Origin: Granulicella sp. dw_53
GTDB lineage: Bacteria > Acidobacteriota > Terriglobia > Terriglobales > Acidobacteriaceae
Direction of reading: 5' to 3'
Length of the DNA: 64,000 nucleotides
Assembly (NCBI RefSeq): GCF_018449545.1
Contig: NZ_JAAVUR010000005.1
Span: 124,001-188,000, forward strand
Shown here: piece after piece, positions 3,176-30,650 of the stretch
Position numbering within the stretch: the stretch's first letter is position 1
Layout: each line of letters starts with the position of its first letter
Translations under genes and position numbers: made by a program
The notes under the pieces: generated by a model
What the model was told of the DNA's origin: nothing
Database searches by the model: none
Seen by the model: the letters and a program-made list of their open reading frames with translations, nothing else

Positions 3176-3199
3176 GCCGCTCCCTTCATTCAGCCAAAG

Positions 3200-4215: not shown

Positions 4216-4240
4216 ACTCATCACTCAAAGGAGAATCACC

Positions 4241-4750: not shown

Positions 4751-4764
4751 GGAGATTTTCGAAT

Positions 4765-5157
4765 ATGGAGCATCCGATGCAAACCCAACCAAGCATCATC
4801 ACGCAACGTATGGGACGGGGGAAGATTCGCGACCGCCGTTCACGTAGCCTCGGCACCAAGCTCACGATTCAAGAAGAGCAGGAGCTTGCCCGCGCAGCCG
4901 AGGCAGACGGAAAGTCTGCCAGCGAGTGGGCTCGTGAAGTCCTATTGCGCGAGGCAAGGCGCTCCGATGACGCCTTATTCACGGAGCTGGTCGCCACGCG
5001 GATGCTGCTTGTAAACCTCATCAAGCCGCTCATCCTGGGCGAAAAGGTATCGCCAACGTGGATCACTGAAGCGATGACGATGGTTCGCAAAGAGAAGCAC
5101 AAGGCCGCTCAAGACGTGATGCAGCAGTACACGCAGGATGCTGGAAAGGAGCGATAA
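4765..5157 (+). CDS. MobC/RHH-like relaxosome accessory protein
   Basis: 130 residues. The N-terminal half is basic (MGRGKIRDRRSRSLGTKLT), followed by an RHH-like stretch (LTIQEEQELARAAEADGKS then ASEWAREVLLREA) resembling plasmid mobilisation protein C. The C-terminal half is helical. Such proteins bind near oriT, help the relaxase open the nick site and often autoregulate. It begins 15 bases after the palindrome at 4710-4750 and ends two bases before the coupling-protein ATG, so it heads the DNA-processing operon. An internal ATG at 4777 is an alternative start. Confidence 0.7.
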   Translation: MEHPMQTQPSIITQRMGRGKIRDRRSRSLGTKLTIQEEQELARAAEADGKSASEWAREVLLREARRSDDALFTELVATRMLLVNLIKPLILGEKVSPTWITEAMTMVRKEKHKAAQDVMQQYTQDAGKER

Positions 5158-5159
5158 CG

Positions 5160-7253: not shown

Positions 7254-7255
7254 CC

Positions 7256-10973: not shown

Positions 10974-12449
10974 CTAGTTAAACTGCTGCACGACCTCGTC
11001 AAATTTGCTATTCACGAGATCTGTTTTCTGCAGTAATACGCCCTGTTCATCCCTATAGGTTTTGTTTGGATCTCCCCGGAACGACAACCAGTTGAAACTT
11101 GTGATCGCGGCAAACTCCTGATCCTTGATGAGCACTTTGGCGTGCGTGTTCCCAATACGTACAAAGCGCAGATTTGCGTACGCCGTCGCTAACTTCTGAA
11201 GATCCGTCTTCGCTGCAGCGTCTGCCGATTTTGGATTCCTTGTTGGATTAGTCGTAATACCATGTCCGATATACACGGATACGCCAGCCTGTAGACGATT
11301 CTCCAGATCCTTTAAGAAATCTTTGTCTACAACTTCACCCCTGATCCACGGAGAAATAATCAGCAATCGTTCCTTAGCAGTCTTCAGCGCATCCCGAAGC
11401 AACAAAGGATGATCATAAACGTAAAGATTTCGCACTGGCAGCGAGCGGGCCTCAGCAGAAAGCCGAACGATTTCTCCTTCGAGAAGTACAAGTTTCTTCT
11501 TGAGTTCAACTTCTTCATCTGGGGCAGTCATTTCGGTTAGACTGTCTTCCATTTCAGCCTTCCGGTTGCTAGCCTCCTCTATCGCTGTTTGAAGGCTTTC
11601 GCTAATCTGTAACGCCTCCGAGTTGCCTTCACTTATTGAGTCCAAATCGCTCCCGATTTCACTCCGAATGGGAACCGTATTCGTGAGGAAATCTAAAAAG
11701 GAGGGTAAGGATGTAAGAACGCGCTCATGTTCAATCGAAAGTTTGCCTCCGATGACGACGCCGACTTGGAGGTCTGTATTGCCTTCGCGGGAGTAAACCA
11801 GAGCCAGAGCAGGAACGAACCACTTCCTGCATGATTCAATCCCTCTAATTGCAACTAGATCTCTGCGCGACTCGGGAGAGGCATGAAGTGACTTCAGCAC
11901 TGAATCTATCTCCGCAATGCGGAGGTCTCCCACCCTGGGGCGCACTGAGGGATAGTTCGCAATTTCACGAAAACCCTTGGATTTCATTTCGCGATAATCG
12001 ATCAGCTGCTCGCTGCGATACCAAATGGATCTCCGAGTTAGGGCATCAAAATACAATGGGAACGTACGCTCCTCTGTCGTCGTCATCACATGCTTCGCCG
12101 CCGTGATATTGCCTTTCGAAGTTAGGTCAAATTCGTTGCCAGCCGTCGCCGGAGTTGCCACTATGTCGTCGGACTCGATGAGTGAGAGGAGCGCTGGCTT
12201 GAGCACTCGCTCGTCCAACCCCAGAAAGGCAGCGAGAGCATCGAAGGAGCGTATGTCCATCGCAAGGGCTCGTAAGATGAATTCCTCAATTGGAGGCACA
12301 TTCTTATGCGCGATGGTTATTGCACGTAACCGGAGGTGATAGACAGGGAGAGCCACTTCGATATAGTCCCTCAAGCGAAGGCCATCGCGAGATGAAAAGC
12401 GCTGTGCAATATCTTCTATGCTCACGAATCCACCTCCACGATCGTACAA
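10974..12449 (-). CDS. PLD-fold protein, partner of the kinase-helicase
   Basis: 491 residues. The N-terminal ~280 residues are unrecognised and partly winged-helix-like. A coiled-coil at about 285-340 (rich in E, K, L) leads to a phospholipase-D-like domain with one HKD motif, NTHAKVLIKDQEF (H-x-K-x4-D), and ITSFNWLSFRGD after it. Only one HKD motif is evident, so the active enzyme would be a dimer, as in Nuc-type nucleases. Its start lies inside the end of the kinase-helicase gene (28-base overlap), so the two are probably translated together. PLD nucleases paired with helicases are recurrent in phage-defence loci, so nuclease activity is a reasonable inference. Confidence 0.75.
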   Translation of the reverse strand: MYDRGGGFVSIEDIAQRFSSRDGLRLRDYIEVALPVYHLRLRAITIAHKNVPPIEEFILRALAMDIRSFDALAAFLGLDERVLKPALLSLIESDDIVATPATAGNEFDLTSKGNITAAKHVMTTTEERTFPLYFDALTRRSIWYRSEQLIDYREMKSKGFREIANYPSVRPRVGDLRIAEIDSVLKSLHASPESRRDLVAIRGIESCRKWFVPALALVYSREGNTDLQVGVVIGGKLSIEHERVLTSLPSFLDFLTNTVPIRSEIGSDLDSISEGNSEALQISESLQTAIEEASNRKAEMEDSLTEMTAPDEEVELKKKLVLLEGEIVRLSAEARSLPVRNLYVYDHPLLLRDALKTAKERLLIISPWIRGEVVDKDFLKDLENRLQAGVSVYIGHGITTNPTRNPKSADAAAKTDLQKLATAYANLRFVRIGNTHAKVLIKDQEFAAITSFNWLSFRGDPNKTYRDEQGVLLQKTDLVNSKFDEVVQQFN

Positions 12450-15400
12450 TCCTGAGAATGCTGCTCGATGTACCGAAGAACTCTCTTGAATGGGTTCTCA
12501 CCCGAAACATTGCTGAAAAAGACGTGATCCCCAACGAGAATCAAATTCTGTTTACAGCGTGACAACGCTACATTGAGGCGGCTTGTTTCTTTGAGAAACC
12601 CTATCTTTCCGAGTTGATTTGACCGTGTGACAGAGTAAATGACGATATCAGCTTGCCGCCCCTGAACCGCATCGACGGTATTCCATTCGACTTCGATATT
12701 GGTACATGTCTTCAGAGTGCTAGCAAAGCGACGTTCCATGATCGAACGTTGCAGGCCATATCCCGTCAGAACAGCAATGGTCAAGACCTTATTCCCAATT
12801 GCTGCTCGTGCGTTGATCGACTTAAGCGTGTCATGAACGATCTGTAGCTCCGCTTCATTCCAATAGCTATCTCCGGTTTTCGTTTCAAAGCGATTGGCTT
12901 TCTTAGAGGTGGAAAGCCATACGACTGGCGTTGGCAGAATCGGTTGCAAGAGTCGATCCCACTCCTTCTCCGCGCTCTTTAGCGTGTCATCATAAAAGCA
13001 ATGACTGATTAGATTTCCAATGGCCGGAACCATTCTGTACTGAATCGATAACATCTTTTTGCAATCGGCAGGCAACATATCATGCAGGCGATCGAAGATC
13101 GTTCTCTTTATAGAGTCTTCATCAAGTCCGAATTCCTGCAATATAGAGGCATCACGAAATCCTTCGTCCACAAAGGGCGGCAGCTGCTTCTGATCTCCGA
13201 CTACGATCCATTTCCGCGACCGTGACAGAGGGATGAGCATCTCAGTTGGCGTCGCCTTCGACGCCTCATCCACGATGCAAACATCGAAATCGATGTCCTG
13301 AACGCCTTTGATTCCAGCGACGCCCACGCAGGTGCCAGCCACAATCTGCGCTGACCTCAACAGAGCCGGCGCAAAATCAGCAGTTCTGCCGAACCGTGCC
13401 TGCCACTCTGCCTGGGTAGTAAACACAGCACGGACGCGCGAGTATTCGGGCGTGGAAGGAAGATACAGCTCCGCCCATCCCCTCAGATCATCGGTAGAGA
13501 GGTTGACTAAACTTGCAGTATCCGGTTCGAGCTTCCTCAGCAAAGAACGGACCTCGTCTCGTTCACTCGTCTTGAGTCGCATCTCTGTTCGAACCTTAGT
13601 GAGCTCGTCACTAGCTGCTCCATACTTTTCCAGCAGGGCGTCTGTCTTCTCGTCTTTGCCAGGAACGAGAGGCGTTTTCTTTTGGGCGACCTTGTTCTCG
13701 TGCTCTTTCAGCTGAGCCTCGAGCAGTGTCTTACGAACATCAAGATCCTCAAGCTCTCTTTGGATTTGAGCGAGTTTTTCAAAGCCCATTCCAATCTGCA
13801 CTTGCTCGTGAGTGATGCCGTGTTGTTTCGCGAAGTCTTCGAGAAACACGGTTCCCCTGCGTATAACCTCATCGCGCCACTGCCCCATCTGGCTGTCAAG
13901 CAGAAGTTCGTCAACCCCCCGCGATATTTTCGGATTGCCGGAACGGCCTAGTCTCACGGTGCGATATTGTGCATTTGTCGTTAGGAGCTGCTCCAGAGCG
14001 TTGTCTAGAGCCACGTGTGTTTGTGAGGTGAGCAAGATACGACGCGCTGGATTCTCACGAAGTATCTGAAGAATCATTTCGGTAATAAAAGTGGTTTTTC
14101 CTGTCCCTGGAGGTCCCTCCACCACGAGGAAGTCCTGCGCGTTCATTGCAGCCAAGACTGCATCTCTCTTAGGCTCGTCCAACTCGGAGAGGATTGGCGT
14201 TACATCAGCAGTATGCTTGAGGAGTCGGCTCTGTTCAGGGAATACAAGTAAGTCCCCGAGATCCGAACGTACCGAGCGACGATATCTGACCGCCTGCAAG
14301 GCAGAATTTTGTCGCTCGATCGCAAGCCGCGCTGCCTCAATATCAATGGAAACAATTCCGGTTCTTGCTAGTTCCCGCGTGTACCAGCGGTCTACTTGCA
14401 TCACCAACTGAGAATCTGATGTGCTTTCGACATGACCAGTGACTTTTACTAGAGCATCATCCTTCACCAGTCGAGGCTGATCAAGCAGTTCACCGGGGAT
14501 TTTACCTTCTACTTCAAAGATGATTCGGTTTCCCTGGACACTATACCCCTTGTAGCGAATCGGGTTCTCTTTGGTCTTCTCGAGCGCATGTTTTGCTCTC
14601 AGAATCGCCCCCCACGTCCGAAACAAATCATTTTGTTGCGCTTGAGAATCTCGCACCGTGAGTTCGAGTCGAAATGCTTCTAGCCTCTCTCGCAAATACA
14701 AAGGTGCCTCACTAGCCTGCCCTTGGCTAGGTTTGCCAGGTCGGAAGCGGATATTCAGTTGAAGCGCCCGTTCTCGCCGCTTTTCCGTGATGCTCGGGGA
14801 AACTTTCGACAATGAATTGATCATGAGGTGATCAGCGGACGGTATTGCGAACGACACATCACAGATGAATGATCCGCCGTAGAGCTTCAATGAGGGTCGT
14901 CCATTTGCCGACTCGCTTGAGCCAATGCCACATACGAGGTTGAGGTCACTCAAAAGTATTGCGGTGGCTTCATCCCGAGACTTCTCGGGGAACAATTTGA
15001 GCAGTTGCGTTATCGCAGGTTGTGCCAAGTCAAGGAATATATCGATTCGGGGTTCTGCATTGATCCCGCGCTGCTCCTGAGCTGCTTCGAGTTCCGCGAG
15101 GAGTACAGCCGCATTCGCCTGTCTTCTAGCAGGATCATTAGAGACGGCACGTTTCAGAATCGAGTGAATGAGAATTGGAAGAGAAGCGCCGTCGAGAGCC
15201 GAAATCAGGTCTTTGTGCTCCGTGAGCTTGGCCCCACTCAGACATTCGATCGCAACGGCTGTGAGGGCATATATATCCCTTGTATAGGTATAAGCGCCGT
15301 CATCGAGTTCGGGAGGTGCATAAGGCGGGCTCATGAACTGGTTTAAGGTATGACTAGGGAATAAATAGGACTTGAGTTTTGAAATTCCAAAGTCCGTGAG

Positions 15401-15871
15401 CCGTGGCGAACCCGCTGAGTCCACCAAAATATTGGAGGGCTTGACATCTCGATGGGAAATTCCGCGGGAGTGCGCTTCGCTCAGCCCTTCCAGCAGCGGG
15501 CGGAGCAGCAACGGATACAGATGATCCCAAGATTCGAACCGCGAAGATTGGAGAAAGCTCGATAGGTCACTGTCCACCCAATCCAAAACAATAAAGGGAG
15601 TTCTTGTCTCAGGATCTTCTCCTTGGTCCAGAAGATTAACAATCGACGGGTGTCGGAGTTGCCCTAGGGAGCGGACCTCGCGCTCGAACGACTCACGCAA
15701 GATTCCCGCGTCCAGATGACCGGCCGTGAGCAATTTGACGGCGACCTTCGCATCTGTCAGTAGATCTCTTGCGGCGTACACCTCGCTCATGCCACCTACT
15801 TTGCACGCAGGCAATAGAGCATATCGGCCATTGACGATTCGCGGAGTGCTACGCAGTGACGCAGAGGCCAT
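12422..15871 (-). CDS. Ser/Thr kinase fused to Dna2/Upf1-like SF1 helicase
   Basis: 1149 residues. Residues 12-270 form a Hanks-type kinase: glycine-loop region KVGGMSEVYAARD, K46 in VAVKLL, HRDVKPSN at 140-147 and DFG at 160-162. All catalytic residues are present. Residues 270-570 form an unassigned linker. Residues 575-1149 are an SF1 helicase with GPPGTGKT 586-593, DEAS 868-871, GDQKQLPP 892-899, SIQYRM, VDAVQGRQADIVI and LNVALSRCKQNL. A long coiled-coil insert (about 695-785) sits between the first helicase motifs. A protein kinase on the N-terminus of such a helicase is uncommon. It could phosphorylate itself or a partner to license the helicase-PLD machine. Predicted cytoplasmic, defence role inferred. 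Confidence 0.85.
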   Translation of the reverse strand: MASASLRSTPRIVNGRYALLPACKVGGMSEVYAARDLLTDAKVAVKLLTAGHLDAGILRESFEREVRSLGQLRHPSIVNLLDQGEDPETRTPFIVLDWVDSDLSSFLQSSRFESWDHLYPLLLRPLLEGLSEAHSRGISHRDVKPSNILVDSAGSPRLTDFGISKLKSYLFPSHTLNQFMSPPYAPPELDDGAYTYTRDIYALTAVAIECLSGAKLTEHKDLISALDGASLPILIHSILKRAVSNDPARRQANAAVLLAELEAAQEQRGINAEPRIDIFLDLAQPAITQLLKLFPEKSRDEATAILLSDLNLVCGIGSSESANGRPSLKLYGGSFICDVSFAIPSADHLMINSLSKVSPSITEKRRERALQLNIRFRPGKPSQGQASEAPLYLRERLEAFRLELTVRDSQAQQNDLFRTWGAILRAKHALEKTKENPIRYKGYSVQGNRIIFEVEGKIPGELLDQPRLVKDDALVKVTGHVESTSDSQLVMQVDRWYTRELARTGIVSIDIEAARLAIERQNSALQAVRYRRSVRSDLGDLLVFPEQSRLLKHTADVTPILSELDEPKRDAVLAAMNAQDFLVVEGPPGTGKTTFITEMILQILRENPARRILLTSQTHVALDNALEQLLTTNAQYRTVRLGRSGNPKISRGVDELLLDSQMGQWRDEVIRRGTVFLEDFAKQHGITHEQVQIGMGFEKLAQIQRELEDLDVRKTLLEAQLKEHENKVAQKKTPLVPGKDEKTDALLEKYGAASDELTKVRTEMRLKTSERDEVRSLLRKLEPDTASLVNLSTDDLRGWAELYLPSTPEYSRVRAVFTTQAEWQARFGRTADFAPALLRSAQIVAGTCVGVAGIKGVQDIDFDVCIVDEASKATPTEMLIPLSRSRKWIVVGDQKQLPPFVDEGFRDASILQEFGLDEDSIKRTIFDRLHDMLPADCKKMLSIQYRMVPAIGNLISHCFYDDTLKSAEKEWDRLLQPILPTPVVWLSTSKKANRFETKTGDSYWNEAELQIVHDTLKSINARAAIGNKVLTIAVLTGYGLQRSIMERRFASTLKTCTNIEVEWNTVDAVQGRQADIVIYSVTRSNQLGKIGFLKETSRLNVALSRCKQNLILVGDHVFFSNVSGENPFKRVLRYIEQHSQDCTIVEVDS

Positions 15872-16088: not shown

Positions 16089-16928
16089 TCAGCCAATCAA
16101 GGAATTGGGCCCGTGAAAAAAGTCCGACTGAAGCTCCACTGGACGCGTTCGCAACTGGATCATTAATTCTTCCCGTTTCGTACGAGAAGGTATTTTGTGC
16201 TCAGAGAGAGGCGGAGATGCGTCATAAAGTTGCCCTCGCAACAGCCGACCATACCGCTTCTTGTGAACACCGCCCCATTGCTTAAAAAAGAACGGCACAC
16301 CCTGTTGCTCACATTGATCCCGGATGGATATCACCCAAGCCTCTTGCATAGGTCGAGCGCGATAACCGCTTTCCCCCCCAACAATGACCCAACTGATCTC
16401 AGAAAGGTCGAGTTCTCCGAGATCCTCCAGTAATGGCTCAACTGAGAGGAATTTGACTCTTGCGTTGGACGATTGAAGATCTTTTATACGAGGAACTCCA
16501 TACTTTTGGTCTTCAACACTCACACCCCACCAGATGTGCGATGCCTCAGTTGTTTCCAATAGTTCTTTATCCAGCATGGCCAGGAGTCGACTCGACCTTT
16601 TGGTGAGCACCTGAAAGGTATGCCACATACAGACAGACATCACTTTGGCAACGTCCCGGATGTACTCGTTAGGAACGTCCTGATGGAATAGGTCACTCAT
16701 GGAGTTGACGAAGACCCTCTTGGCAGAAGACCAGGCTAGCGGCTCCAATAACTTCTCGGGAACAAGACGGAGGTCGAATCCTTGCTCGTAGGGGTGATTC
16801 GGGACTCCCCTAAATCTTTCCGCGAACGTGCTGGCATAGCAGTGCGCGCAACCCGGACTAATCTTGGTACACCCACGCACCGGGTTCCAGGTTGCATCAG
16901 TCCACTCGATTGTTGAGATCTCCGCCAT
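16089..16928 (-). CDS. DUF5131 (phage Gp37/Gp68-type) three-Cys protein
   Basis: 279 residues with the family signature MAEISTIEWTDATWNPVRGC at the N-terminus and three cysteines C20, C27 and C30 (C-x6-C-x2-C), probably holding an Fe-S cluster as in radical-SAM-like TIM barrels. Later conserved pieces are LTKRSSRL, WWGVSVEDQKYGVPRI, FLSVEPLLEDLG, IVGGESGYRARPM and FFFKQWGG. The family is found in phages and defence islands and its reaction is not known to me. It is divergent from the KOW-like/RHH-like gene, with only 59 bases between them. No TcmP-type partner is obvious. The Rossmann-like protein at 20428 may play that part. Confidence 0.88.
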   Translation of the reverse strand: MAEISTIEWTDATWNPVRGCTKISPGCAHCYASTFAERFRGVPNHPYEQGFDLRLVPEKLLEPLAWSSAKRVFVNSMSDLFHQDVPNEYIRDVAKVMSVCMWHTFQVLTKRSSRLLAMLDKELLETTEASHIWWGVSVEDQKYGVPRIKDLQSSNARVKFLSVEPLLEDLGELDLSEISWVIVGGESGYRARPMQEAWVISIRDQCEQQGVPFFFKQWGGVHKKRYGRLLRGQLYDASPPLSEHKIPSRTKREELMIQLRTRPVELQSDFFHGPNSLIG

Positions 16929-16939
16929 GTGATGACCCT

Positions 16940-16979
16940 CTAATTTGATTATTGCAAAAAATTAGGGCTTTGGTATAGC
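16940..16979 (+). promoter_or_regulatory. Divergent promoter with inverted repeat
   Basis: TTGCAA (16952-16957) and TATAGC (16974-16979) are separated by 16 bases, a good sigma-70-type promoter pointing right. The ATG of the next gene is nine bases after the -10 box, so the transcript would be leaderless or nearly so. The inverted repeat CTAATTT (16940-16946) and AAATTAG (16959-16965) overlaps the -35 box and spacer, and is a candidate operator for the small protein encoded next. Confidence 0.5.
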
Positions 16980-16987
16980 CTGACCCA

Positions 16988-17392
16988 ATGGATCTGACAG
17001 CAGGCCTTCAGGTCGGCGACAAAGTAAAGCTGAAGCCGTCCGCTAAGCACAACGCTGGCAGACGGGGAATCGTGCTGTCTCAGAATCGTGGTTCCCTTGT
17101 CGTTAGGTTAGAGGACGGCGAAGAGGTTCGCGCCGAAAGCACTCAGCTTTGCAACTACAGTCTCGCCGCTCGAAAGGCTTGGCTAAAAATGCCCGACCGC
17201 AAAGTGGGACGGCCCAAGGGAAGCGGGGTGGGAGACCGCATATCGGTCACTATCAGGTTTGATAGAGCGCTGTGGGAGGCCTTCCTCGAGAAAGAACGCA
17301 ATGGCGAAGTTCAGAGCCGCACAGCTGTACTGAATCAGGTTCTCAGAGAAATCGTCGGTATCGATGCTGGGGAAAGGTCTCGGAGAGCGTGA
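16988..17392 (+). CDS. Small KOW-like/RHH-like protein, candidate regulator
   Basis: 134 residues. The N-terminal half resembles an SH3/KOW-like barrel (QVGDKVKLKPSAKHNAGRRG followed by LVVRLEDGEEV). The C-terminal half looks like a DNA- or nucleic-acid-binding segment: basic KVGRPKGSGVGDRISVTIRF, then two helices including RTAVLNQVLREIV, which fits a ribbon-helix-helix. It is first in the rightward operon, preceded by a promoter with an overlapping inverted repeat, and its stop overlaps the HerA start (GTGA). A role as autoregulator or DNA-binding specificity subunit of the system is inferred. Confidence 0.7.
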   Translation: MDLTAGLQVGDKVKLKPSAKHNAGRRGIVLSQNRGSLVVRLEDGEEVRAESTQLCNYSLAARKAWLKMPDRKVGRPKGSGVGDRISVTIRFDRALWEAFLEKERNGEVQSRTAVLNQVLREIVGIDAGERSRRA

Positions 17393-18741
17393 AATCCACA
17401 TTGACGACAGCCCAGCGGGAACAGATATCGGATTTACTCGATGCGGGTCATCCTCGAGATTTCATCGCGGAGGCGGCTGGCGTAACACCCGGACAAGTGT
17501 CGGCACTGTCGGCTCACCGAACGATGAAGGCCATGCGACACATCTCCGCGCCGTCGAACGGATTAATTTCAGAAACGAGTTCACCGGCGGCAGTGGACGC
17601 TAGAAAACATAATGCGTTGAAGGAAGACAGGCAGGATGCCCTGCTCTTGGGTTGGGACCAAAACGGAACCGCAGTCAACTGGAATCCTGTTCAGAGTGTT
17701 AACCCTCACGTGATGATTCTGGGAGAAAGCGGGTTCGGCAAAACGTACAGCACATCATGCCTCATAGCCGAGCTGACTCGGTCTCATATAACTTCGATTA
17801 TTTTCGATTATGGGCAAGGTTTCACTGCGGACTCAGCACATCCGACGCTTTTAGCGCTCGCGAAACCTCAGCAGTTCGAAGCCGCGCGGCTCGGGATCCA
17901 CCTCAATCCTTTTGAAATCCTGCCGTCAGACCTACATGGTCCACTTAGTGTGGCCCAACGGATTGCGGATACGCTGGGCCGAGTCTTTCCAGGGATCGGT
18001 ATTCAACAGAATGCCGCAATAAGGGACTCGATCATTTCCTTGTACAAGGAAGTCGGAATTCATAGTCAAGTGATAAGTTCCTGGCAGAAGCCAGTTCCGA
18101 GATTCGGCCGTCTTCGAGACGCCCTTATTGAAAATGCGGACGACCCTGGCCGTTCGGACCGAAATGTATTCCGTACGGCTGCGTCCCACATATCTTCATT
18201 GTTTGTCTTCGACGTGTTTCGCGGAACGGGTATCTCCCTTCCATGGACAGATCTTCTTCGCCAGGCCAATCCCGTGGTGATTCAGTTGCGGGGCTTAGAG
18301 CAAAACCTACAGAGGGCGATCACCGAATTACTTCTTTGGAATCTGATGGGCTTGTTAGAGTCGATCGGCCCCGGTCCGCTCCGTACGATCATCGTCATCG
18401 ATGAGGCCCATAGAATGCCGATGGGAGCCGGTTCTGCCGTAGAGAAGCTCCTTCGCGAAGGCAGGAAGTTTGGCGCCGGGGTAATCTTAGCGTCGCAGCA
18501 GCCCGAAGACTTTACCCCTGTTGCGTTTTCGAATACCGCGACGAAGCTGGTTTTCCAGATCAGCGATCACAGCTCGACTGTTGCGAAACAGTTGTTCCGC
18601 AAGCTGAGGACACCGATAGCATTCCCAGTACTTTGTAAGATTTTGACGACCCTCGAACGTGGCAATGCATTCGCCATTAGCAACAATGAAGGCGCTGCCA
18701 TCAGAGTTGCAACGTTTGAGGAGCGCTTTCCACGCTTCTAA
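17389..18741 (+). CDS. HerA/VirB4-type ATPase with N-terminal HTH
   Basis: 450 residues from GTG 17389, which overlaps the previous stop by four bases. Longer frames upstream lack support. Residues 5-45 look like a helix-turn-helix (REQISDLLDAGHPRDFIAEA, then VTPGQVSALSAH). The ATPase core has Walker A GESGFGKTYS at about 111-120, Walker B TIIVIDEAHRMP at about 333-344, and GRKFGAGVILASQQPEDF, the sensor region typical of HerA-FtsK translocases. HerA motors pump or remodel DNA and often work with nucleases, SIR2 or GHKL partners in phage defence. It is followed 21 bases later by the GHKL ATPase. Confidence 0.85.
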   Translation: MKSTLTTAQREQISDLLDAGHPRDFIAEAAGVTPGQVSALSAHRTMKAMRHISAPSNGLISETSSPAAVDARKHNALKEDRQDALLLGWDQNGTAVNWNPVQSVNPHVMILGESGFGKTYSTSCLIAELTRSHITSIIFDYGQGFTADSAHPTLLALAKPQQFEAARLGIHLNPFEILPSDLHGPLSVAQRIADTLGRVFPGIGIQQNAAIRDSIISLYKEVGIHSQVISSWQKPVPRFGRLRDALIENADDPGRSDRNVFRTAASHISSLFVFDVFRGTGISLPWTDLLRQANPVVIQLRGLEQNLQRAITELLLWNLMGLLESIGPGPLRTIIVIDEAHRMPMGAGSAVEKLLREGRKFGAGVILASQQPEDFTPVAFSNTATKLVFQISDHSSTVAKQLFRKLRTPIAFPVLCKILTTLERGNAFAISNNEGAAIRVATFEERFPRF

Positions 18742-18762
18742 ATTCTGCACTATGGAGATCAA

Positions 18763-20427
18763 ATGGCTCTTGGTTGGCAAGCGATTAAGGATGAGTTCAC
18801 GATAGAGGACATCGGCGCGCCTCTTCTCACGAATCTGGCAAAGGGAATTTACACACCCGAAGCTATGTTGCGAGAGTACGTCCAAAATGCAGGCGATTCC
18901 TACTATGATTTGAGGGAGAAAACGCACCAACCCGTTCCTGCCTCGGATCAGACTATCGACATATACATAGTGAGAGAGGGCGCTCTTGCGATCCAGGACA
19001 AAGGTATTGGCATGGATCTGGAGGACATCAGGAAATATAAGCGCATAGCCTATTCAGCGAAGGGAGGGAGCGACAGGGCCGGCTTTCGCGGGATTGGCAT
19101 CTGGGCTGGGTATTCAGCGTGTGACGAGTTGGTCGTGGAAACAACCAAGCTTGGTGACACAAAGAAATATCGCCTCACGCTCGAATTCGCGAAAATGCGA
19201 AAAGCGGTGTCTCAAAACATCAGTATCAAGAACTTGCTGGACCAGCGCTTCCGAATTGAAGTCTCCGATGCGGCGAAGAAAACGGAACATTACACTCAAG
19301 TCGTTCTTTCCGGCCTAAATGAAGAGTTTGCGGATCTACTCAAGAGCGAAGAGCTTGAGCGGATCGCACAGGAAATCCTTCCTTGCCGTTTCAGCCCACA
19401 CTTCAAGCATACAAACGCAATTACCAAGCGGCTCTCGGCCATAGATGGGTATCAGGAATTTGCCGTACAGGTTAGTGGGACTGAGATTTTCAAGAAATAT
19501 CACCAGAACTGTGAAGAGCCAGAATTCGAGGTGCTGAAGCGCGACGATGAGGAGTACGGATTCGTCTGGTACTGCCAAAGTTCAACAGTGCGAAGCTTCG
19601 CAAACAAGCCCAGCAACTTCCGGTTGCGGGCGAAGAACATCGCAGTGGGTGGCCCTGGGATGTATTCAGCGGAAACTGGCACGCAATGGGGAGTGCCTGG
19701 GACCGTAGCGTCCGGTGAACTGCTCGATTGGTACTTCGGCGAGGTTCACATCACTCATCCTGATGTAAAGCCAAATACGCCTCGCAGCGAGCTCGAATTG
19801 GATACCGAGTCGAGGCGAGCCATAACGTGTGTCCGAGCCTTCTACTCAGACAGGATTGCGTATAGACGTGCCTATTCGAATGTGAATAGTCACAGGACCC
19901 TCGTCGACACCGTATCCAAAGCATTGGACGGCGGCCAAATTTACGATCCGAAGGACCGAGCTCGCCATCTGAAGGCGCTTACAAAGTACGACAAACTGGC
20001 GAAGTCAAAGGTGCCAGCAAAGGACTCTACCAGTCAGGAGAAAACTTCTCGTCACGAGAGGAAAATATTGAAGGCTCTTGAGGCGAAGGAGCCAGTTTTA
20101 GGGCACAATCGGCAAAAAGCAATTGACCAGCTAACAGGGCCTGGAGGAGCCAGCGTTTCCGTTGGAAAACCTGAGGCAGTCAAGACTTCAGTTGATGGTG
20201 CTGCTAGAGTAGAGGCGCCTGGAAAAGGTAAGAGAGATTCAGACTATGAGGAAGGCCTCTTCCCAGAGCGGTCTATAGGCTCTGCGCTTCCCGACTACGA
20301 GCAAGTATTAGCCGAAATCGTCCAAGCAATTGAAAAACGTTTGGCCGACCAGGACGATTTGGCAAGCGAGCTTTGTGAAGGGATACAGGACATCTTCAAA
20401 GACCACGGTCTACTGGTGGTCATATAA
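18763..20427 (+). CDS. GHKL (Hsp90/MutL/paraMORC-like) ATPase 1
   Basis: 554 residues. The Bergerat fold at residues 20-200 has the N-box REYVQNAGDS (E38, N42, D45), D79-x-G-x-G in QDKGIGMD, and a glycine lid AGFRGIGIWAG (107-115). A transducer-like middle domain follows. The C-terminal ~160 residues are charged and coiled-coil-like with no recognised domain. GHKL ATPases dimerise on ATP and clamp DNA. Relatives called paraMORC/MutL-like occur in prokaryotic restriction-modification loci. It shares its layout with the convergent GHKL protein at 21283-22845. An immediately adjacent ATG starts the next gene, so the two are coupled. Confidence 0.88.
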   Translation: MALGWQAIKDEFTIEDIGAPLLTNLAKGIYTPEAMLREYVQNAGDSYYDLREKTHQPVPASDQTIDIYIVREGALAIQDKGIGMDLEDIRKYKRIAYSAKGGSDRAGFRGIGIWAGYSACDELVVETTKLGDTKKYRLTLEFAKMRKAVSQNISIKNLLDQRFRIEVSDAAKKTEHYTQVVLSGLNEEFADLLKSEELERIAQEILPCRFSPHFKHTNAITKRLSAIDGYQEFAVQVSGTEIFKKYHQNCEEPEFEVLKRDDEEYGFVWYCQSSTVRSFANKPSNFRLRAKNIAVGGPGMYSAETGTQWGVPGTVASGELLDWYFGEVHITHPDVKPNTPRSELELDTESRRAITCVRAFYSDRIAYRRAYSNVNSHRTLVDTVSKALDGGQIYDPKDRARHLKALTKYDKLAKSKVPAKDSTSQEKTSRHERKILKALEAKEPVLGHNRQKAIDQLTGPGGASVSVGKPEAVKTSVDGAARVEAPGKGKRDSDYEEGLFPERSIGSALPDYEQVLAEIVQAIEKRLADQDDLASELCEGIQDIFKDHGLLVVI

Positions 20428-21273
20428 ATGCCTCTGAACAGCTTTCCGGACAGTCTCGAAAAAGATGCCATTCGTCGGCGGGATGCAGCAAGCCTTCGAG
20501 CCTTCAGGGCAAGAATTGGTATCACGGGTCTCGCTTACTGTGGACTCACTAGCGCGGAGTTTCGTGACGTCCAGATCTGGCAACCTGCCTTGGGCTCCGT
20601 TTGCGCTGTCGAAAAGGACGAAGAAACACTGAACAATCTATCAATCAACTGGTACAACAAACAGCTGAAGCTTCCGTTCCAAGTGGTGTCGGGCGACATC
20701 TTTGAATATCTCGTCGCGTCAGGAACCAGATGCTACGACGTCTACAATCTAGACCTGTACGGCGGATTCACGAATCGGCGTAAGTCTGGCGAATCACCTT
20801 GTCGAGAAGCAATCATGAGCTTGGCTGCGCGACATCGATCAGAAAAGTTGCCGTTTGCGCTCGTCGCGACTTTCAATGTGAGAGATAGCGGTATGCAGCC
20901 CTATGACGGTTTGATCGCAGAGATAAGGAATACCCTCGAAGGTCTACGCGATGTTGACGCAAACCTGCAAGAACATAGCAAGACCCACGCACTAAAGGTG
21001 AAACTCTGCTATGCCTACACTTGTTGGCATGCAGGCCGGAGCAATGACTTCTCCGTGGAGTTTTCGGATCCAATTCTTTACTCCAGCGGAAAAACAAATT
21101 TGGTTCATTTCTACACCGAATTTCATCACCGCTCTCAGGCGCTTCCCACCCCATCTGCCGACAGGACACGACTCTGCGAAATTATGGCGCTGCCTTTACG
21201 TCGGATGGTCGGGCGCATACCTACAGTCGAGCTTAGGCCCACCATCCCTCGACCGAACGATGCGAAATCGTAG
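20428..21273 (+). CDS. Rossmann-like protein, possibly methyltransferase-related
   Basis: 281 residues, starting the base after the GHKL stop. I do not recognise the family. The pattern of SVCAVEKDEETLNNL (acidic end of a second strand), FQVVSGDIFEYL and YDVYNLDLYGGF is reminiscent of SAM-dependent methyltransferase motifs II, III and IV, but the glycine-rich motif I (expected near ITGLAYCGLTSAEF) is poor and no NPPY/DPPY motif appears. It may therefore be an inactive or diverged methyltransferase, or a TcmP-like partner of the DUF5131 protein. It ends nine bases from the convergent GHKL2 stop. Confidence 0.6.
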   Translation: MPLNSFPDSLEKDAIRRRDAASLRAFRARIGITGLAYCGLTSAEFRDVQIWQPALGSVCAVEKDEETLNNLSINWYNKQLKLPFQVVSGDIFEYLVASGTRCYDVYNLDLYGGFTNRRKSGESPCREAIMSLAARHRSEKLPFALVATFNVRDSGMQPYDGLIAEIRNTLEGLRDVDANLQEHSKTHALKVKLCYAYTCWHAGRSNDFSVEFSDPILYSSGKTNLVHFYTEFHHRSQALPTPSADRTRLCEIMALPLRRMVGRIPTVELRPTIPRPNDAKS

Positions 21274-21282
21274 TGTTCTGCT

Positions 21283-22845
21283 TCACTTGGGCTTACGTTT
21301 GTTGCGGAGCTTAGACAGAATCTTGCCAACGAGCCTGTCTGCTGCGTCCGATGAGCTTTCGATAAGATAGATCGTCTCGATAACATCTTTGATGATCTGT
21401 CGTTGAGCCGGGGGGAAGTCTTGGAGCGCATCTGCTGAATCGGGTTCTTCCGGGAGTCCCTTGAGCTTATTCGTGATCTTTTTGATTCGAAGCTGAAAGG
21501 CGTCTCCTTCCGACCCCGTGAACAACTCTCGCTGGGTGCTTTTTTCCAGTGCTGACAGAGTTGTGGTGATTTCATCTCGGAGCGAGGCGACGACGAAGGC
21601 TGGTGTCCGGGCTTTTGAAGCGATTGCGATGCCTTCCTCGCATTTTGCGAGATCTGCTTCGTGCCGCTGGAGTGCGTTTCGTGTAATGGAGCTCGTCCGG
21701 CAACGATGCGCAATGTCCTTCGCCGTTGGTGTCAGCCGCGTAAGCAAATCGGAGAAGTGGGCGCTCTGCTCGTAATTATCCCTCCGACCATTGGGGATGA
21801 TTTTTCTGCTTACGACATGAGTTTCGGCTATGGCCCAGCCATTGAATCGGCTTTCCGGAAATAGATCTTCCAGGATGTCACTGCCACCTACCTGTACATC
21901 ACCAGACCGAAGACGCCATCCATTGACCATCGTGCTCTTAGGGAGTGAACCAAGGTAGTCATGGTGAAGAATCCAAGTTACGGCTGAACATTCTCCATCA
22001 CGGTCGAGAGTTGTGAACATATCAGGCGGAAGTAAGGTGAGCGTCTTTCCTCCGACGATAATCTTGTCTCGATGTGGCCTGAAGATCTGCCCTGAGCCTT
22101 CAATCTCAACCGAGAGCGGAGTGTATCGGACACCGTTAGCGGCGAGATACGAAGCTATGTCCTTGCCGAAGGCAAACTCGGGATGGAACGCAACCGGAGC
22201 GACCTGGCTGAGATATTGAGACACTTCAAGCTCATTTAGTAGTCGATCATCTCTGTGCCGAACAACGTTGCGCAGTTCTACTTGAAAAAAGTGTTCGGGG
22301 TATCCGGCCGCTGATAGCGTGCGTGCTTCAATGCTCTCGGATATGATTCCGGCAAGATCTAGATGAGCGTCAGCAGACCGCAATAGATCACGAATTCTGC
22401 GTGAGTCCCAGCGCAACTCGTAAACAGCGTCTTTTCCTGCTGGACGTGTACGGAAGATGAGTTCTTGACAATACGCAAGGCCCGCCAATCTTCCCACGCC
22501 CCGGAATCCGCGTGCGTTAGTTCCTCGTTTCGCGCTCCCGCCGATGGATGTGAGGCGCTTATAAAAGTCCCGCTCTCCTAGACCGAGACCATCGTCCGAG
22601 ATGAGTATGCTTCGCTCTTGGCGATTGATTTTGATCTGGACTGTTCCGCCGTGATGGACTTCTGCGTGATCTTTATCAGAGTCGCTCGCATCGGCTGCGT
22701 TTTGAATGTACTCCCGATACATCGTGAGCGGGTCGATGTACATGGAAGTGCTCAGCAGCTCCAGTACGTCTTTGCCGATGAAGATCTCGTGTGCCGGTTT
22801 TTTCCACTGTGGAAGCTTTACTTGGAGATTTACGAGTCCGGACAT
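21283..22845 (-). CDS. GHKL (Hsp90/MutL/paraMORC-like) ATPase 2
   Basis: 520 residues, last gene of the leftward operon. The Bergerat fold has the N-box REYIQNAADAS (E45, N49, D52), SDDGLGLG (D85, G86, G88) and lid ARGFRGVGRLAG (G113-G118). The middle domain parallels GHKL1: PVAFHPEF here against PCRFSPHF there, and VQVGG here against IAVGG there, followed by a similar tail. It is thus a diverged paralogue. The C-terminus is charged (SKLRNKRKPK). Its start shares one base with the radical SAM stop (TGATG), implying coupled translation. A pair of different GHKL ATPases suggests a heterodimeric clamp. Confidence 0.88.
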   Translation of the reverse strand: MSGLVNLQVKLPQWKKPAHEIFIGKDVLELLSTSMYIDPLTMYREYIQNAADASDSDKDHAEVHHGGTVQIKINRQERSILISDDGLGLGERDFYKRLTSIGGSAKRGTNARGFRGVGRLAGLAYCQELIFRTRPAGKDAVYELRWDSRRIRDLLRSADAHLDLAGIISESIEARTLSAAGYPEHFFQVELRNVVRHRDDRLLNELEVSQYLSQVAPVAFHPEFAFGKDIASYLAANGVRYTPLSVEIEGSGQIFRPHRDKIIVGGKTLTLLPPDMFTTLDRDGECSAVTWILHHDYLGSLPKSTMVNGWRLRSGDVQVGGSDILEDLFPESRFNGWAIAETHVVSRKIIPNGRRDNYEQSAHFSDLLTRLTPTAKDIAHRCRTSSITRNALQRHEADLAKCEEGIAIASKARTPAFVVASLRDEITTTLSALEKSTQRELFTGSEGDAFQLRIKKITNKLKGLPEEPDSADALQDFPPAQRQIIKDVIETIYLIESSSDAADRLVGKILSKLRNKRKPK

Positions 22846-24443
22846 CAGGCAGTGATCTCCACATAATCAGAGGCGGCCAGTGTTGACGCTTTTTCAGCAT
22901 CGTCGTCCAATCCTGCATCCTCTACTCTTTCGTCGTCCGGTACCGCAGCGGATGTCCGTGGGGCATTCCAGATTAGAGCCTCTTGCGTTTTATCCATAGG
23001 AACGTAGAACTGCAAGATCCTTCTGACAGCCGAACTCTCCGCCGACCTCGGCAGGAGCTCAAAGTTCCTCGCGTCAGTGGACGAAAGCAAGTTGAGGAGT
23101 TCAGCGCGGTCACTGTCAACCAAGCGTGCAAATTCCGCTTTGAACTGTTCCAGTTCAGGTTTTCCAGGGCCCTGTTCAAACCATTGACGGTTAAAGATGA
23201 AGTGGTGCGGCATGAGGAGAATCTCCTCGAACTGTTCATAGGTGTCACCAAACGCGTGCCGGAAGAAACTTGGCTGACCGCTGACCACTCCGTGCGTGGC
23301 CTGCAAAATCAACTGCATAGATCGCAGCTGGTACCGTGACCATTTATCACCGATGTGTGATCGGTTCGGGAGGTCGGTCGGCTGAAACCGCATTGGAAAA
23401 GACCAGATCCGAATGTTTAAGTCTTCATTAAGCTGGACGTTTAGTCGCATTCTCTCGAACAGATCTGCGGGAGAATCTTTGAAGTTGTATAGCATGTAAT
23501 TTGAAAGCTCCGTCAACCCAAACTCTGTCGCGTACCGAATCGCTTTAGCGTAGGGCTCTTTCAGCCCAAGATGATCGAAAGCGATTCGTAACGGCTTCAA
23601 ACAGATGGTCGATAATTCGCGGAGATACATCTTGTCTTTGCAAAGAATGCGAGCGTCTACTCCTTGGTTGAAGTCCACGCGACGTTGGACAGAAACGCGT
23701 CCTCGCTTGAGTTTCGCACCAGGCGTAAAGCCGAGATCTCTGATTTCAGCGATGATTTCGCGGAAGTTGGCGGAGGCGACCACGTTGTTGTCCATAAGCG
23801 TTAGGTCTTTCTTGGCGCCGTAATACATCTCAACGCCTCGAACGATTGCTGAAATGGACTCCGTGTCCCTCTGGTCACCCTCTAGCTTAGGAACTCCGCA
23901 GAAGCTGCACTTCCGAATGCAGCCCCGTGACCCATACGTGAAATAGGCATCACTCACGGGATATTTGTAATCAATCTGGTCGAGGATGCTGTAGTCCGGG
24001 ATCAAGTCCTCGATGGGAGTTCCACTGACATCACCTGCGTATAGCTCGTCGGAAAAGTCGTCGAGTTGAAGAGAAATTGCAGGTGCTGTATTCAGCAGTC
24101 CCTTGATAACGCGGATACCTTGCCAACGGCGCTCCTCTAAGAAGCGTGCATGCATCAGCGATGCCGCGATACCACCAACGAATACCTTGTCACGGCTCCC
24201 GCCCGCTACTCTCAAAGCAAAATCTATCGTTTCGGCAATTTTGGGATATTCAAACGAAAAGAGGGTTGTCACATAGATGCGATCCCAGGCCTGACCCAGT
24301 ACTGATTTGTCCTCTCCCTTAATGAAGACCACATGATCTCGTTTGCCTCTTGGCCCGTGATACTGCGCGATTTTCATCAAGCCGAGAGGCGGATACTTAT
24401 TCTTGTACCCAGGCTCGATCAGAAGAATTCGATTGTTAGCCAT
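22845..24443 (-). CDS. Radical SAM enzyme with B12-binding-like N-terminal domain
   Basis: 532 residues. The radical SAM cysteines lie in GSRGCIRKCSFCGVP (C175, C179, C182; C-x3-C-x2-C). The N-terminal ~150 residues begin RILLIEPGYKNKYPPLGLMK and continue to VFVGGIAASL, the pattern of the Rossmann domain that precedes B12-type radical SAM barrels. The DxHxxG cobalamin motif is not seen, so B12 use is uncertain. The C-terminal ~200 residues are unassigned. The substrate is unknown. In this operon (DGQHR protein upstream, GHKL downstream) a nucleobase, sugar or nucleotide modification is a plausible inference. The start overlaps the DGQHR stop by eight bases. Confidence 0.85.
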   Translation of the reverse strand: MANNRILLIEPGYKNKYPPLGLMKIAQYHGPRGKRDHVVFIKGEDKSVLGQAWDRIYVTTLFSFEYPKIAETIDFALRVAGGSRDKVFVGGIAASLMHARFLEERRWQGIRVIKGLLNTAPAISLQLDDFSDELYAGDVSGTPIEDLIPDYSILDQIDYKYPVSDAYFTYGSRGCIRKCSFCGVPKLEGDQRDTESISAIVRGVEMYYGAKKDLTLMDNNVVASANFREIIAEIRDLGFTPGAKLKRGRVSVQRRVDFNQGVDARILCKDKMYLRELSTICLKPLRIAFDHLGLKEPYAKAIRYATEFGLTELSNYMLYNFKDSPADLFERMRLNVQLNEDLNIRIWSFPMRFQPTDLPNRSHIGDKWSRYQLRSMQLILQATHGVVSGQPSFFRHAFGDTYEQFEEILLMPHHFIFNRQWFEQGPGKPELEQFKAEFARLVDSDRAELLNLLSSTDARNFELLPRSAESSAVRRILQFYVPMDKTQEALIWNAPRTSAAVPDDERVEDAGLDDDAEKASTLAASDYVEITA

Positions 24444-25476
24444 GTTTCACCAACGTGAGGCGAGCTTTGCCGCGAACTTCTCGTATGCTGGCTACCATCT
24501 TTGTGACGCCGGATTGCCCACCCAGACCATCGAATGTGCCTTTCTGCGTCCAATCGATGTCGTCGATGAACTCGGAAAGCTTGTGCGAAAAGTAACGCTT
24601 GTCGCAGACCTGATCCGCCGCCTCCTGTTGGAGGTCGGCGGCGATTTCCATCAGGGCGTAGACGCCAATGCCCTTGTTCAGAACGTGGGCCCTCGGCGCG
24701 TTCCAAGCGTCTGCCAATACAACAGACACAGCAGACCAAAATGCGACGACCATTGACTTTGCGTCTTCAACGCTTCCTTTGCGAAGGACCTGTGTCTGCG
24801 CCAGAAACTTTTTAATAGCTTTTTGCATTGTGCGTAGGGATGCACGCCGCTTCAAACCGGAGGTTGATGTCCCCCCAAGGTCAAGCTGCTTGTGCCAGGG
24901 AGAGTCGGGATCTGCGTTGAGCTGGATTGCAATATAAAGCTCGGCTTTTTCTTTTCCTAGATTACTGGCGAGCGAAGCCTCATGAAAATCGAGCAGGCTG
25001 TTGCTCAGGCCCCTCGCTTTGCTGTTGATAACGTTGAAGATCTCCATCTCGGCGCGTTCGTCCAAGCCAAGGAACATCATGAATGGGAGTTGCACATCAA
25101 CATCGTTGAGGTGGCCTAGCCGATGCTGGCAATCCACTTGTACGAGCACCTTCTCATGACCTTCACGCACTTTAAGGACCGTAGGTCCATCTATGTCGGG
25201 ATTTAGCGACCACGTATCTGTCGGATTTGCGCGCAAATTGAAAGTCAACGGGATCGTAGAACTTCGCTCTTTCTGGATGTACTTGCGAAAGTCGAGGCTG
25301 TGTTTCGCATTGAATCGCCTCTGATAACCGCGTCCAGTTTCTTCAACCAGCACGTCGGCGAAGCTCAACGCGTAGAGGACTCGCGCGGCCGCAAATCCTA
25401 TCGCGACGCGACGGCCCGCAGACCAACCAACTTGGCACGATATGGAGTGTTCAATCGTCAAAATGCAGTCTTTCAC
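24436..25476 (-). CDS. DndB/DGQHR-like protein
   Basis: 346 residues, first gene of the leftward operon. It resembles the DGQHR-domain family that includes DndB, the regulator or specificity factor of DNA phosphorothioation. The signature is VQVDCQHRLGHLND (D115-C-Q-H-R119), with the conserved second Gly replaced by Cys, followed by FNVINSKARGLS, which matches the FNVIN.K..GLS segment of DndB-like proteins. No other dnd genes are present, so it probably serves another modification chemistry, presumably that of the adjacent radical SAM enzyme. The start has no strong ribosome site. An unrelated 245-base gap lies upstream. Confidence 0.8.
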   Translation of the reverse strand: MKDCILTIEHSISCQVGWSAGRRVAIGFAAARVLYALSFADVLVEETGRGYQRRFNAKHSLDFRKYIQKERSSTIPLTFNLRANPTDTWSLNPDIDGPTVLKVREGHEKVLVQVDCQHRLGHLNDVDVQLPFMMFLGLDERAEMEIFNVINSKARGLSNSLLDFHEASLASNLGKEKAELYIAIQLNADPDSPWHKQLDLGGTSTSGLKRRASLRTMQKAIKKFLAQTQVLRKGSVEDAKSMVVAFWSAVSVVLADAWNAPRAHVLNKGIGVYALMEIAADLQQEAADQVCDKRYFSHKLSEFIDDIDWTQKGTFDGLGGQSGVTKMVASIREVRGKARLTLVKHG

Positions 25477-25720: not shown

Positions 25721-25765
25721 TGTGCCATGGGAGAGGTCATCGGTTCGATCCCGGTCAGGCCATCA
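25721..25765 (+). other. tRNA-like 3' fragment (possible old attachment site)
   Basis: The sequence AGAGGTC followed by a T-arm (ATCGG, loop TTCGATC, CCGGT at 25739-25755) and CAGGCCATCA looks like the 3' part of a tRNA, closest in pattern to tRNA-Ala. No D-arm or 5' acceptor strand is found upstream and the terminal CCA is not exact, so it is not a functional tRNA gene. Such 3' scraps are left by tyrosine-recombinase integration into tRNA genes. Confidence 0.45.
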
Positions 25766-29729: not shown

Positions 29730-30650
29730 ATGCCAGATCGAAGCTCTGTCGTTATCTCGCTTTCGGATTGTATAGCGCAGTACGACGCCCACCTGCTCAA
29801 GATCCGTGGCTTATCGAAGTCCACGCGTAACCTTCATCGCCATGTAGTTCACATGCTGTTGTGCTCCAGCTTTCCGACTGGCGATATTGCCTGGAGCACG
29901 TTTTGCTTTGGCGATGTCGTGCAGTTTGTCACCACCGAGTTTCAACGGCTGACGAGCCGCGCGACACAACGTGTGTGGCTGATGGTGCTGCGCAGCTTTC
30001 TACGCTATCTGGCGGCTCACGAACATATCTCAGGCGGCTGGGATGCAGCTCTGCCTTCGATTGCCAACCGGCAGCATGTGCAACTGCCACGCGGACTGAC
30101 GCAGCAGCAGGTAGACGCGCTTTGGACCGCGAGTGAGGGATCGAAGCCGCGCGACCTGCGCAACCGGGCGCTGTTCCTGCTCTTTCTGCGCCTGGGACTG
30201 CGCACCGAAGAGGTAGCCAGCCTTGTCCCTGGAGATATCGACTGGAGCGCCGGCAACCTGAAGGTGCGTAGTGCCAAGACCACCCGGGTTCGCACGCTGC
30301 CTCTTGCTCAGGATGTCGGTGAGGCTCTGGTGGCTTATTTACGCAGCCTGCATCGGCGGCCAGTACGTCTCTTCGATCCCGCGCGCAAGCCACCGATACC
30401 AGAACAACGCTACGAGGTCTATGTCAGGAACTGCGTCTACTATCTCTTCGAGCGCGCCGGCATCCGGGATCGCGGGCCTCATTCTTTGCGCCATACGCTG
30501 GCCACGGAGATGGTCGGCAAGGGAGCCACCTTCAAGGCTGTCTCCGATGTCCTCGGCCACAAGTCGATCACGACCACGTTGATCTATGCCAAGCTCGACC
30601 TGGAGGCGTTGAAGCAGGTGGCGCTGCCATGGCCCGGAGGTGCGCGATGA
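29730..30650 (+). CDS. RIT tyrosine recombinase, first of trio
   Basis: 306 residues. An N-terminal SAM-like core-binding domain (residues ~10-110) precedes the catalytic domain with LGLRTEEVASL (first Arg), HSLRHTLATEMV (His-x-x-Arg) and LGHKSITTTLIYAK (His and nucleophilic Tyr). All catalytic residues are present, so the protein could be active. GGAGGAGAAG lies upstream of ATG 29730. Its stop overlaps the ATG of the second recombinase gene. In RIT elements the three proteins are thought to act together. Here the other two are damaged. Confidence 0.9.
   Translation: MPDRSSVVISLSDCIAQYDAHLLKIRGLSKSTRNLHRHVVHMLLCSSFPTGDIAWSTFCFGDVVQFVTTEFQRLTSRATQRVWLMVLRSFLRYLAAHEHISGGWDAALPSIANRQHVQLPRGLTQQQVDALWTASEGSKPRDLRNRALFLLFLRLGLRTEEVASLVPGDIDWSAGNLKVRSAKTTRVRTLPLAQDVGEALVAYLRSLHRRPVRLFDPARKPPIPEQRYEVYVRNCVYYLFERAGIRDRGPHSLRHTLATEMVGKGATFKAVSDVLGHKSITTTLIYAKLDLEALKQVALPWPGGAR

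Follow-up and report, generated by a model that had tools for sequence, protein, structure and literature searches.

A radical SAM and GHKL gene pair with exchangeable partner cassettes: a candidate modular defence system in Granulicella sp. dw_53

In the systems Dnd/Dpt and Ssp, the modification core can be joined to restriction partners of more than one kind, and the DndB protein is optional in Dnd, being present in 51% of Dnd taxa according to the available part of PMC10853773. Section 22 of the same article, as available, deals with HerA/FtsK capture systems, in which DndH-related motors lie outside DndFGH, and the available text of PMC2292703 describes GHKL ATPases together with SFII helicases and nucleases in mobile MORC/paraMORC restriction loci. 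Here we analyse a locus of Granulicella sp. dw_53 (Acidobacteriota) at positions 16089–25476 of a stretch of 64,000 nt (contig NZ_JAAVUR010000005.1, positions 124,001–188,000; hereafter, the window), where a core with a radical S-adenosylmethionine (SAM) protein and a GHKL ATPase faces a cassette with a HerA-type motor and a second GHKL ATPase. The locus resembles Dnd/Dpt and Ssp in joining one modification-like core to more than one kind of restriction-like partner, and Dnd in the optional presence of a DndB-like protein; it further shares a DptH-like HerA motor with Dnd/Dpt, a DndH-related motor outside DndFGH with the capture systems, GHKL ATPases with the mobile MORC/paraMORC restriction loci, and a DGQHR protein with the Dpd 7-deazaguanine system. 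We propose, with a probability of about 0.5, that it is a modular, horizontally moving defence system that would work like Dnd/Ssp or like restriction-modification. The genes of the locus are the following:

16089–16928, minus strand: three-Cys protein of the DUF5131 family, resembling radical SAM mobile pair protein A (cassette, divergent)
16988–17392, plus strand: small protein with a KOW-like N-terminal and an RHH-like C-terminal part, probable regulator (cassette)
17389–18741, plus strand: HerA/FtsK-type motor, near the DptH/DndH motor domain (cassette)
18763–20427, plus strand: GHKL ATPase a (GHKLa), paralogue of GHKLb; HATPase_c_3, 43.5 bits (cassette)
20428–21273, plus strand: MTl, protein of class I methyltransferase fold, with Trm1 as the nearest solved fold (cassette)
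21274–21282: gap of nine bases between the converging stops, from the coordinates of the open reading frames (ORFs)
21283–22845, minus strand: GHKL ATPase b (GHKLb), adjoining the radical SAM gene; HATPase_c_3, 42.0 bits (core)
22845–24443, minus strand: radical SAM protein with a B12-binding-like N-terminal domain that lacks DxHxxG, proposed marking enzyme (core)
24436–25476, minus strand: small DGQHR-family protein with the motif DCQHR, likely a DndB-like accessory regulator; TIGR03187 (core-associated)

All the ORFs named in the initial annotation are present where it placed them, with intact motifs, and so is the gap that it reported between the facing stops, at 21273 on the plus and 21283 on the minus strand. 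The gene overlaps are likewise real: the TGA stop of the RHH gene (17390–17392) overlaps the GTG start of the HerA gene at 17389, which we take instead of the start in the ORF list (17272, too far upstream); the stop of GHKLa abuts the start of MTl (20427/20428); GHKLb and the radical SAM gene have base 22845 in common, and the radical SAM and DGQHR genes overlap by 8 bases (24436–24443). The division into two facing units, one modification-like and the other restriction-like, is supported, but the roles of the two ATPases had to be reassigned, GHKLb going with the radical SAM protein and GHKLa with HerA.

To examine the conservation of this organization, we tabulated 100 loci: 92 fetched by similarity to the radical SAM protein, seven from further genomes and the window itself, nine of them near-identical to other rows. 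Of the 7997 matches at E ≤1e-3 in the sequence search, the top 120 were listed, and these are 71–90% identical to the window protein; the figure of 7997 may include more distant radical SAM proteins and is not a count of this system. A genome scan confirmed 126 relatives by two short conserved patterns, and the best 80 of these 126 loci were taken, which favours close relatives. Gene calling relied on a simple script, and the labels came from models derived from these same loci. The radical SAM gene was paired with a GHKL gene in 97 of the 97 loci with room to see it, and a GHKL gene was called directly downstream in 95/100; among the other five, L061, L081 and L083 end at the contig, L050 has a GHKL gene missed by the gene caller and L108 has it upstream. 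The radical SAM gene and its downstream GHKL are thus the constant pair of the system, and GHKLb, as the companion of the radical SAM gene, falls on the proposed marking side; the GHKL that the initial annotation had put to work with HerA corresponds to GHKLa. In L108, the radical SAM relative that follows the GHKL gene is a 705-amino acid protein (L108:8836-10953) that aligns in three pieces, as though carrying an insert.

The radical SAM protein is the obvious candidate for the enzyme of the core. Its Pfam Radical_SAM score (18.8 bits) is below the cut-off (29.5); nonetheless, the intact CxxxCxxC motif and a predicted radical SAM fold support its identity, and the pattern RGCxRKCxFCG occurs in 92 of 98 copies of the family. 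The DxHxxG mark of cobalamin-dependent radical SAM enzymes was found in the first 140 residues of none of the 98 copies, although some radical SAM enzymes bind B12 without it. The close folds include AprD4, OxsB, MiaB and RimO; MiaB acts on RNA, OxsB on nucleotides and AprD4 on sugars.

The small DGQHR protein matches TIGR03187 at 114.9 bits (cut-off 58.85, NCBIfam), as expected from its initial assignment to the DGQHR family, whereas the DpdB (66.9 bits, cut-off 300) and DndB models of Pfam and NCBIfam score below their cut-offs; a sequence search of the PDB with this protein retrieved nothing. Its gene lies directly upstream of the radical SAM gene in 51 of the 98 loci with room for it (49 called, plus L026 and L049 by tblastn; L050 and L082, with too little upstream sequence, are excluded) and is missing in 47, in seven of which the large DGQHR gene of one of the cassettes described below takes its place. 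Additionally, the small type shows the variant motif DCQHR in 47 of 50 copies, versus DGQHR in all 24 cassette copies, a split that suggests different roles for the two types. This protein had been envisaged as a DNA-marking enzyme, which is unlikely because the gene is so often missing and its motif is a variant; we rejected it as an essential marking enzyme, and an accessory, DndB-like role looks a better fit.

At least one of six unrelated cassettes accompanies the core in 94 of the 100 loci, including all 63 that extend at least 7 kb either way; in the other six loci, contig ends leave less than 2.3 kb on one side. Cassette 1 (54 loci, plus four partial) comprises ParB-like proteins and an SNF2 helicase, often with a small protein as well; cassette 2 (28 loci), a PIN_8 protein and a further GHKL; cassette 3 (19 loci), a large DGQHR protein whose N-terminal part is weakly endonuclease-like, with a weak match to Card1; cassette 4 (seven loci, including partial forms), the HerA, GHKLa and methyltransferase-fold set of the window; cassette 5 (five loci), a DndB-like protein (PF14072, 40.2 bits) and a 275-amino acid protein, and cassette 6 (four loci), two unnamed proteins and a GHKL. 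Proteins from the window locus and from cassettes 1–4 were scanned against PADLOC, Pfam and NCBIfam, and those from cassettes 5 and 6 against Pfam, which recognised a family in only one of them (DndB). In these scans no family was common to the six cassettes, and three encode members of nuclease or DNA-motor families, namely PIN_8, the SNF2 helicase that accompanies ParB-like proteins, and the weak Card1-like endonuclease beside DGQHR. PDB sequence searches with the large DGQHR and the PIN proteins retrieved nothing. Cassettes 1 and 3 occurred together in full form once in the 100 loci (L079), and a partial cassette 1 with cassette 3 in three rows, of which L062 and L117 represent one locus. 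We discarded a single fixed seven-gene system, as the cassettes differ among relatives: the genes, initially taken to be selected as units, consist of a core joined to one or several cassettes from an exchangeable repertoire of at least six.

That one core serves unrelated cassettes suggests that what they have in common is a mark and not a protein partner. It would also suit a core whose product is a small signal or an altered nucleotide, switching on whichever cassette is present with no DNA mark; viperins, reportedly, make 3′-deoxy-3′,4′-didehydro nucleoside triphosphates (ddhNTPs), the nearest folds of the radical SAM protein include the small-molecule enzymes OxsB and AprD4, and DGQHR/ParB and GHKL proteins bind nucleotides. 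However, a common ligand-binding part was not seen among the six cassettes in the scans made, and the SNF2 and HerA motors suggest DNA, so that we consider such a signal unlikely.

The cassettes are exchanged among related cores. Two other loci from the genus of the window have cores similar to that of the window and different cassettes: in G023 (cassettes 1 and 5) the radical SAM protein, GHKLb and the DGQHR protein are 91, 80 and 71% identical, respectively, to those of the window, and in G021 (cassettes 1 and 2) the radical SAM protein is 82% identical. Conversely, the cassette of the window is nearest to that of L053 (61% identity for GHKLa, 56% for HerA, 62% for MTl and 65% for DUF5131), whose core is more distant (69% for the radical SAM protein and 37% for GHKLb). 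On a radical SAM tree of 87 rows, built with a quick method, the cassette labels need 42 changes (minimum possible 13, shuffled mean 48.8), indicating that cassettes move often; cassette 4 alone needs at least four, with carriers on several branches. Together, these results indicate much cassette exchange plus some inheritance.

We then took cassette proteins of two plasmids that carry the core and searched the full set of 72,556 plasmid records with them, as a check on the core-cassette linkage that does not depend on the tabulated loci. A radical SAM match was present in 17 records, 12 of them covering at least 80% of the query. The ParB-like protein matched seven records, all among these 12 core-positive plasmids, and at a coverage of at least 80% so did the PIN protein (8/8) and the large DGQHR protein (5/5). 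The PIN protein had some match in the 12 core plasmids, plus three core-negative records matching 14–36% of it, while 31 other records matched only the shared DGQHR part of the large DGQHR protein (20–36% of the query). Cassettes 1 and 3 divide the 12 plasmids seven to five, with no overlap. The chance values for the three proteins correspond to log10 p of −27, −32 and −19, which treat the records as independent although several are the same or sister plasmids; the linkage is far beyond chance. Among 280 genomes of the class, the ParB-like model matched 15 at E 1e-10, the strong matches (E <1e-60) being those of the core-positive G021, G023 and G464, and of G014, with the other 11 weaker; the PIN model matched six, at full length only in the core-positive G021. 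At E 1e-10, neither the ParB-like nor the PIN model matched the genome of the window.

The core recurs in several phyla (Acidobacteriota, Pseudomonadota, Verrucomicrobiota, Nitrospirota, Binatota and others) as well as on rhizobial, sphingomonad and other plasmids, so that it is not limited to this genome, a limitation that would have refuted the initial reading. Novosphingobium aromaticivorans DSM 12444, with pNL1, is a named carrier, and IMG/VR yielded seven loci. Its occurrence is patchy: a near-full-length radical SAM protein is present in three of the 37 genomes listed for the genus, including that of the window (two more have short weak matches); a profile search gave seven of the 280 genomes of the class, and a one-sequence search two of 396 of the phylum. 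This patchiness fits horizontal movement. Eleven phage records had a radical SAM match, none covering 80% or more of the query; ten are 22.8–34.1% identical, and one short record is 43.5% identical over 70% of the query. Five plasmid records contain similarly distant relatives (22.8–29.0% identity). Two of four distant-relative contexts are near DNA methyltransferase genes, but these relatives are too distant to argue from. In an archaeal plasmid (L107:4657-10230), the gene of a distant radical SAM protein precedes three DNA methyltransferase genes, and a phosphoadenosine phosphosulfate reductase is encoded close by; in a Marinitoga phage (L104:5992-9818), a distant relative faces HerA and exonuclease genes.

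In the window, the HerA ATPase call stands on a DUF87 match (32.2 bits), a match to DptH (7es4; E 6.7e-11 across 281 residues) and a PADLOC match to DndH (PDLC02684, 135.9 bits; translated from 17386), and its Walker A is GESGFGKT; by sequence, this motor is nearest to DptH, a phosphorothioate-dependent restriction protein. Both GHKL calls are likewise supported by HATPase_c_3, and GHKLa and GHKLb are 30% identical over 285 residues (E 4.8e-21). So is the DUF5131 call (PF07505, 321.5 bits); this protein scores 74.2 bits with TIGR04471 (cut-off 355, NCBIfam), and a PDB sequence search with it retrieved nothing. The KOW/RHH call is weak: a relative from L043 reaches 22.4 bits (E 1.6e-4) with the BrnA antitoxin model PF14384, whose cut-off is 26.1. 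The gene initially called Rossmann-like, MTl, has instead a methyltransferase fold; its sole NCBIfam match is PP_RS20740 (18.8 bits, cut-off 200), with the TcmP three-Cys-motif partner model unmatched, and a Pfam scan of four of its relatives gave nothing, though the protein database lists PF28273 for some.

The rarity of the HerA cassette (7/100 loci) could mean that the two halves of the window are unrelated neighbours joined by chance. Nevertheless, L043 and L053 have the full set of RHH, HerA, GHKLa, MTl and DUF5131 next to their cores, while L031, L033, L060 and L068 have parts of it, and these loci fall on several branches of the tree, which makes chance highly improbable. The KOW/RHH-like gene is kept in L043, L053 and L060, and DUF5131 in L043, L053 and L031. 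In L068, a Radical_SAM protein that weakly matches spore photoproduct lyase (L068:16946-18064) takes the position of DUF5131 in the HerA cassettes of the window, L043 and L053, and in L053 the cassette adjoins a protein in which a HEPN domain comes after a Peptidase C26 domain (L053:18340-19542). The proximity of MTl to Trm1, the MiaB and RimO folds and the PIN_8 protein of cassette 2 would also accord with a core that modifies tRNA, rRNA or a ribosomal protein, with cassettes that attack translation (PIN RNase) or guard the change; this is very unlikely, in that DNA is suggested by the DptH-like motor, by the SNF2 helicase and by the DGQHR/ParB proteins.

We infer DNA as the substrate from the DNA motors and the nuclease families that the cassettes contain, along with the DptH-like HerA of the window; restriction by the cassette and phages as the target are likewise inferred. 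In the mechanism that we propose, the radical SAM enzyme would make a radical-chemistry mark on host DNA, GHKLb could load or gate this enzyme on DNA and the small DCQHR protein, where present, would tune or repress marking as DndB does. The partner cassette would be an exchangeable reader and executor, formed in the window by the HerA/DptH-like motor, by GHKLa as a putative second GHKL clamp and by the methyltransferase-fold protein, while the RHH protein and the divergent DUF5131 gene might provide control or a second modification. Its strongest mechanistic argument, by analogy, is the Dnd/Ssp-like organization, with one core, several restriction partners and an optional DndB-type protein. 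From the initial model of marking and sensing we retain a modification-like unit and a restriction-like unit, each of putative chemistry, but not DGQHR as the marker.

Several observations weigh against this proposal. Because the loci were fetched through their radical SAM gene, every one has it by construction, and the 94/100 figure is partly so, as the cassette models derive from the counted loci, the plasmid search being an independent check. None of 200 shuffles needed as few as 42 changes, so that the labels are somewhat clustered and part of the pattern is inherited; also, G014 has a strong ParB-like match (L148:9288-10322) and no core at E 1e-30. The radical SAM protein matches no DNA-modifying family among those searched and several of its fold neighbours act on proteins or small molecules. 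The methyltransferase-fold gene could be the marking enzyme in this window. Finally, no nuclease domain was recognised in the cassette proteins of the window or, with Pfam, in those of cassettes 5 and 6; any cutting here would fall to GHKLa, to DUF5131 or to a nuclease encoded elsewhere, unless the motor acts by blocking.

A Mokosh type I pair, detected with PADLOC, adjoins the locus on the minus strand (10974–15871) and belongs to its neighbours, not to the locus:

12422–15871, minus strand: MkoA, kinase-helicase (754.7 bits)
10974–12449, minus strand: MkoB, PLD protein (232.6 bits)

From 301 eligible proteins flanking the loci, 93 were drawn at random and 83 scanned (ten, mostly cut by the locus ends, were omitted). 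At E 1e-20, PADLOC recognised Mokosh, type IIG restriction, SngA, UzuA and a reverse-transcriptase helicase among other families, nearly all in one or two members each, in a sample of 83 proteins without a control set. The twelve plasmid records with the core and the conjugation genes within the window could indicate plasmid or element maintenance, or transfer conflict (addiction or exclusion of rival plasmids), instead of phage defence, and toxin-antitoxin pairs often include PIN and RHH families. We regard this as quite unlikely, given that the core is also chromosomal in L055 and L062 (by title) and in G023 (a one-contig genome), though most fetched loci are draft contigs of undefined replicon, and that the flanks contain anti-phage families; restriction and plasmid exclusion can share a mechanism. 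The conjugation genes (548–10924, plus strand; VirB8, a TrwB/TraD-type coupling protein and a TrwC relaxase) may be part of an integrative conjugative element. Two consecutive genes of the phage integrase family occupy 29730–31558 (plus strand), and 25742–25762 (plus strand) resembles the 3′ end of a tRNA gene; no tRNA was called in the window and these 21 bases occur once in the genome at up to one mismatch, a possible attachment scar without an intact partner.

Membership of Dnd, Dpd and the PADLOC candidates PDC-M30 and PDC-M41 was considered and rejected, as the scanned window proteins do not match their full sets of components. Unlike Dnd, the locus has radical SAM and GHKL genes in place of DndC, DndD and DndE, which had no match among ten window proteins (PADLOC, Pfam and NCBIfam), and of DndFGH we found the DndH/DptH motor domain only, in a stand-alone protein of 450 amino acids. 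PADLOC did not detect DpdA, which defines Dpd together with DpdB, in the locus proteins or in the scanned proteins of cassettes 1–4. The DUF5131 protein strongly matches PDC-M41B (340.4 bits) and PDC-M30B, and the other nine scanned proteins match no further component of these sets. MORC/paraMORC loci use DNA methylases as modifiers, and the word "radical" is absent from the available text of PMC2292703; similarly, section 22 of PMC10853773 does not include a radical SAM/GHKL neighbourhood, and "GHKL" appears 0 times in its available text. No PADLOC, Pfam or NCBIfam model names the gene set in the proteins scanned, agreeing with the initial view that the combination is not a named system, and no description was found in the literature searched, which covers subscription papers and preprints thinly, so one may exist elsewhere. 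It is conceivable, at somewhat less than even odds, that these loci form a widespread immunity class in which radical SAM and GHKL proteins write a radical-made DNA mark read by at least six interchangeable restriction modules. This would be a defence family whose core differs from those of Dnd, Ssp, Dpd, BREX and DISARM, and it predicts a radical-chemistry modification of nucleic acids, a mark that would be a new kind of bacterial DNA epigenetic modification, together with a natural set of exchangeable readers. N. aromaticivorans DSM 12444 and pNL1 allow the question to be addressed directly by liquid chromatography–mass spectrometry; if the DNA mark is real, the system, here grouped with the known modular modification-restriction systems, would come closer to being categorically new.

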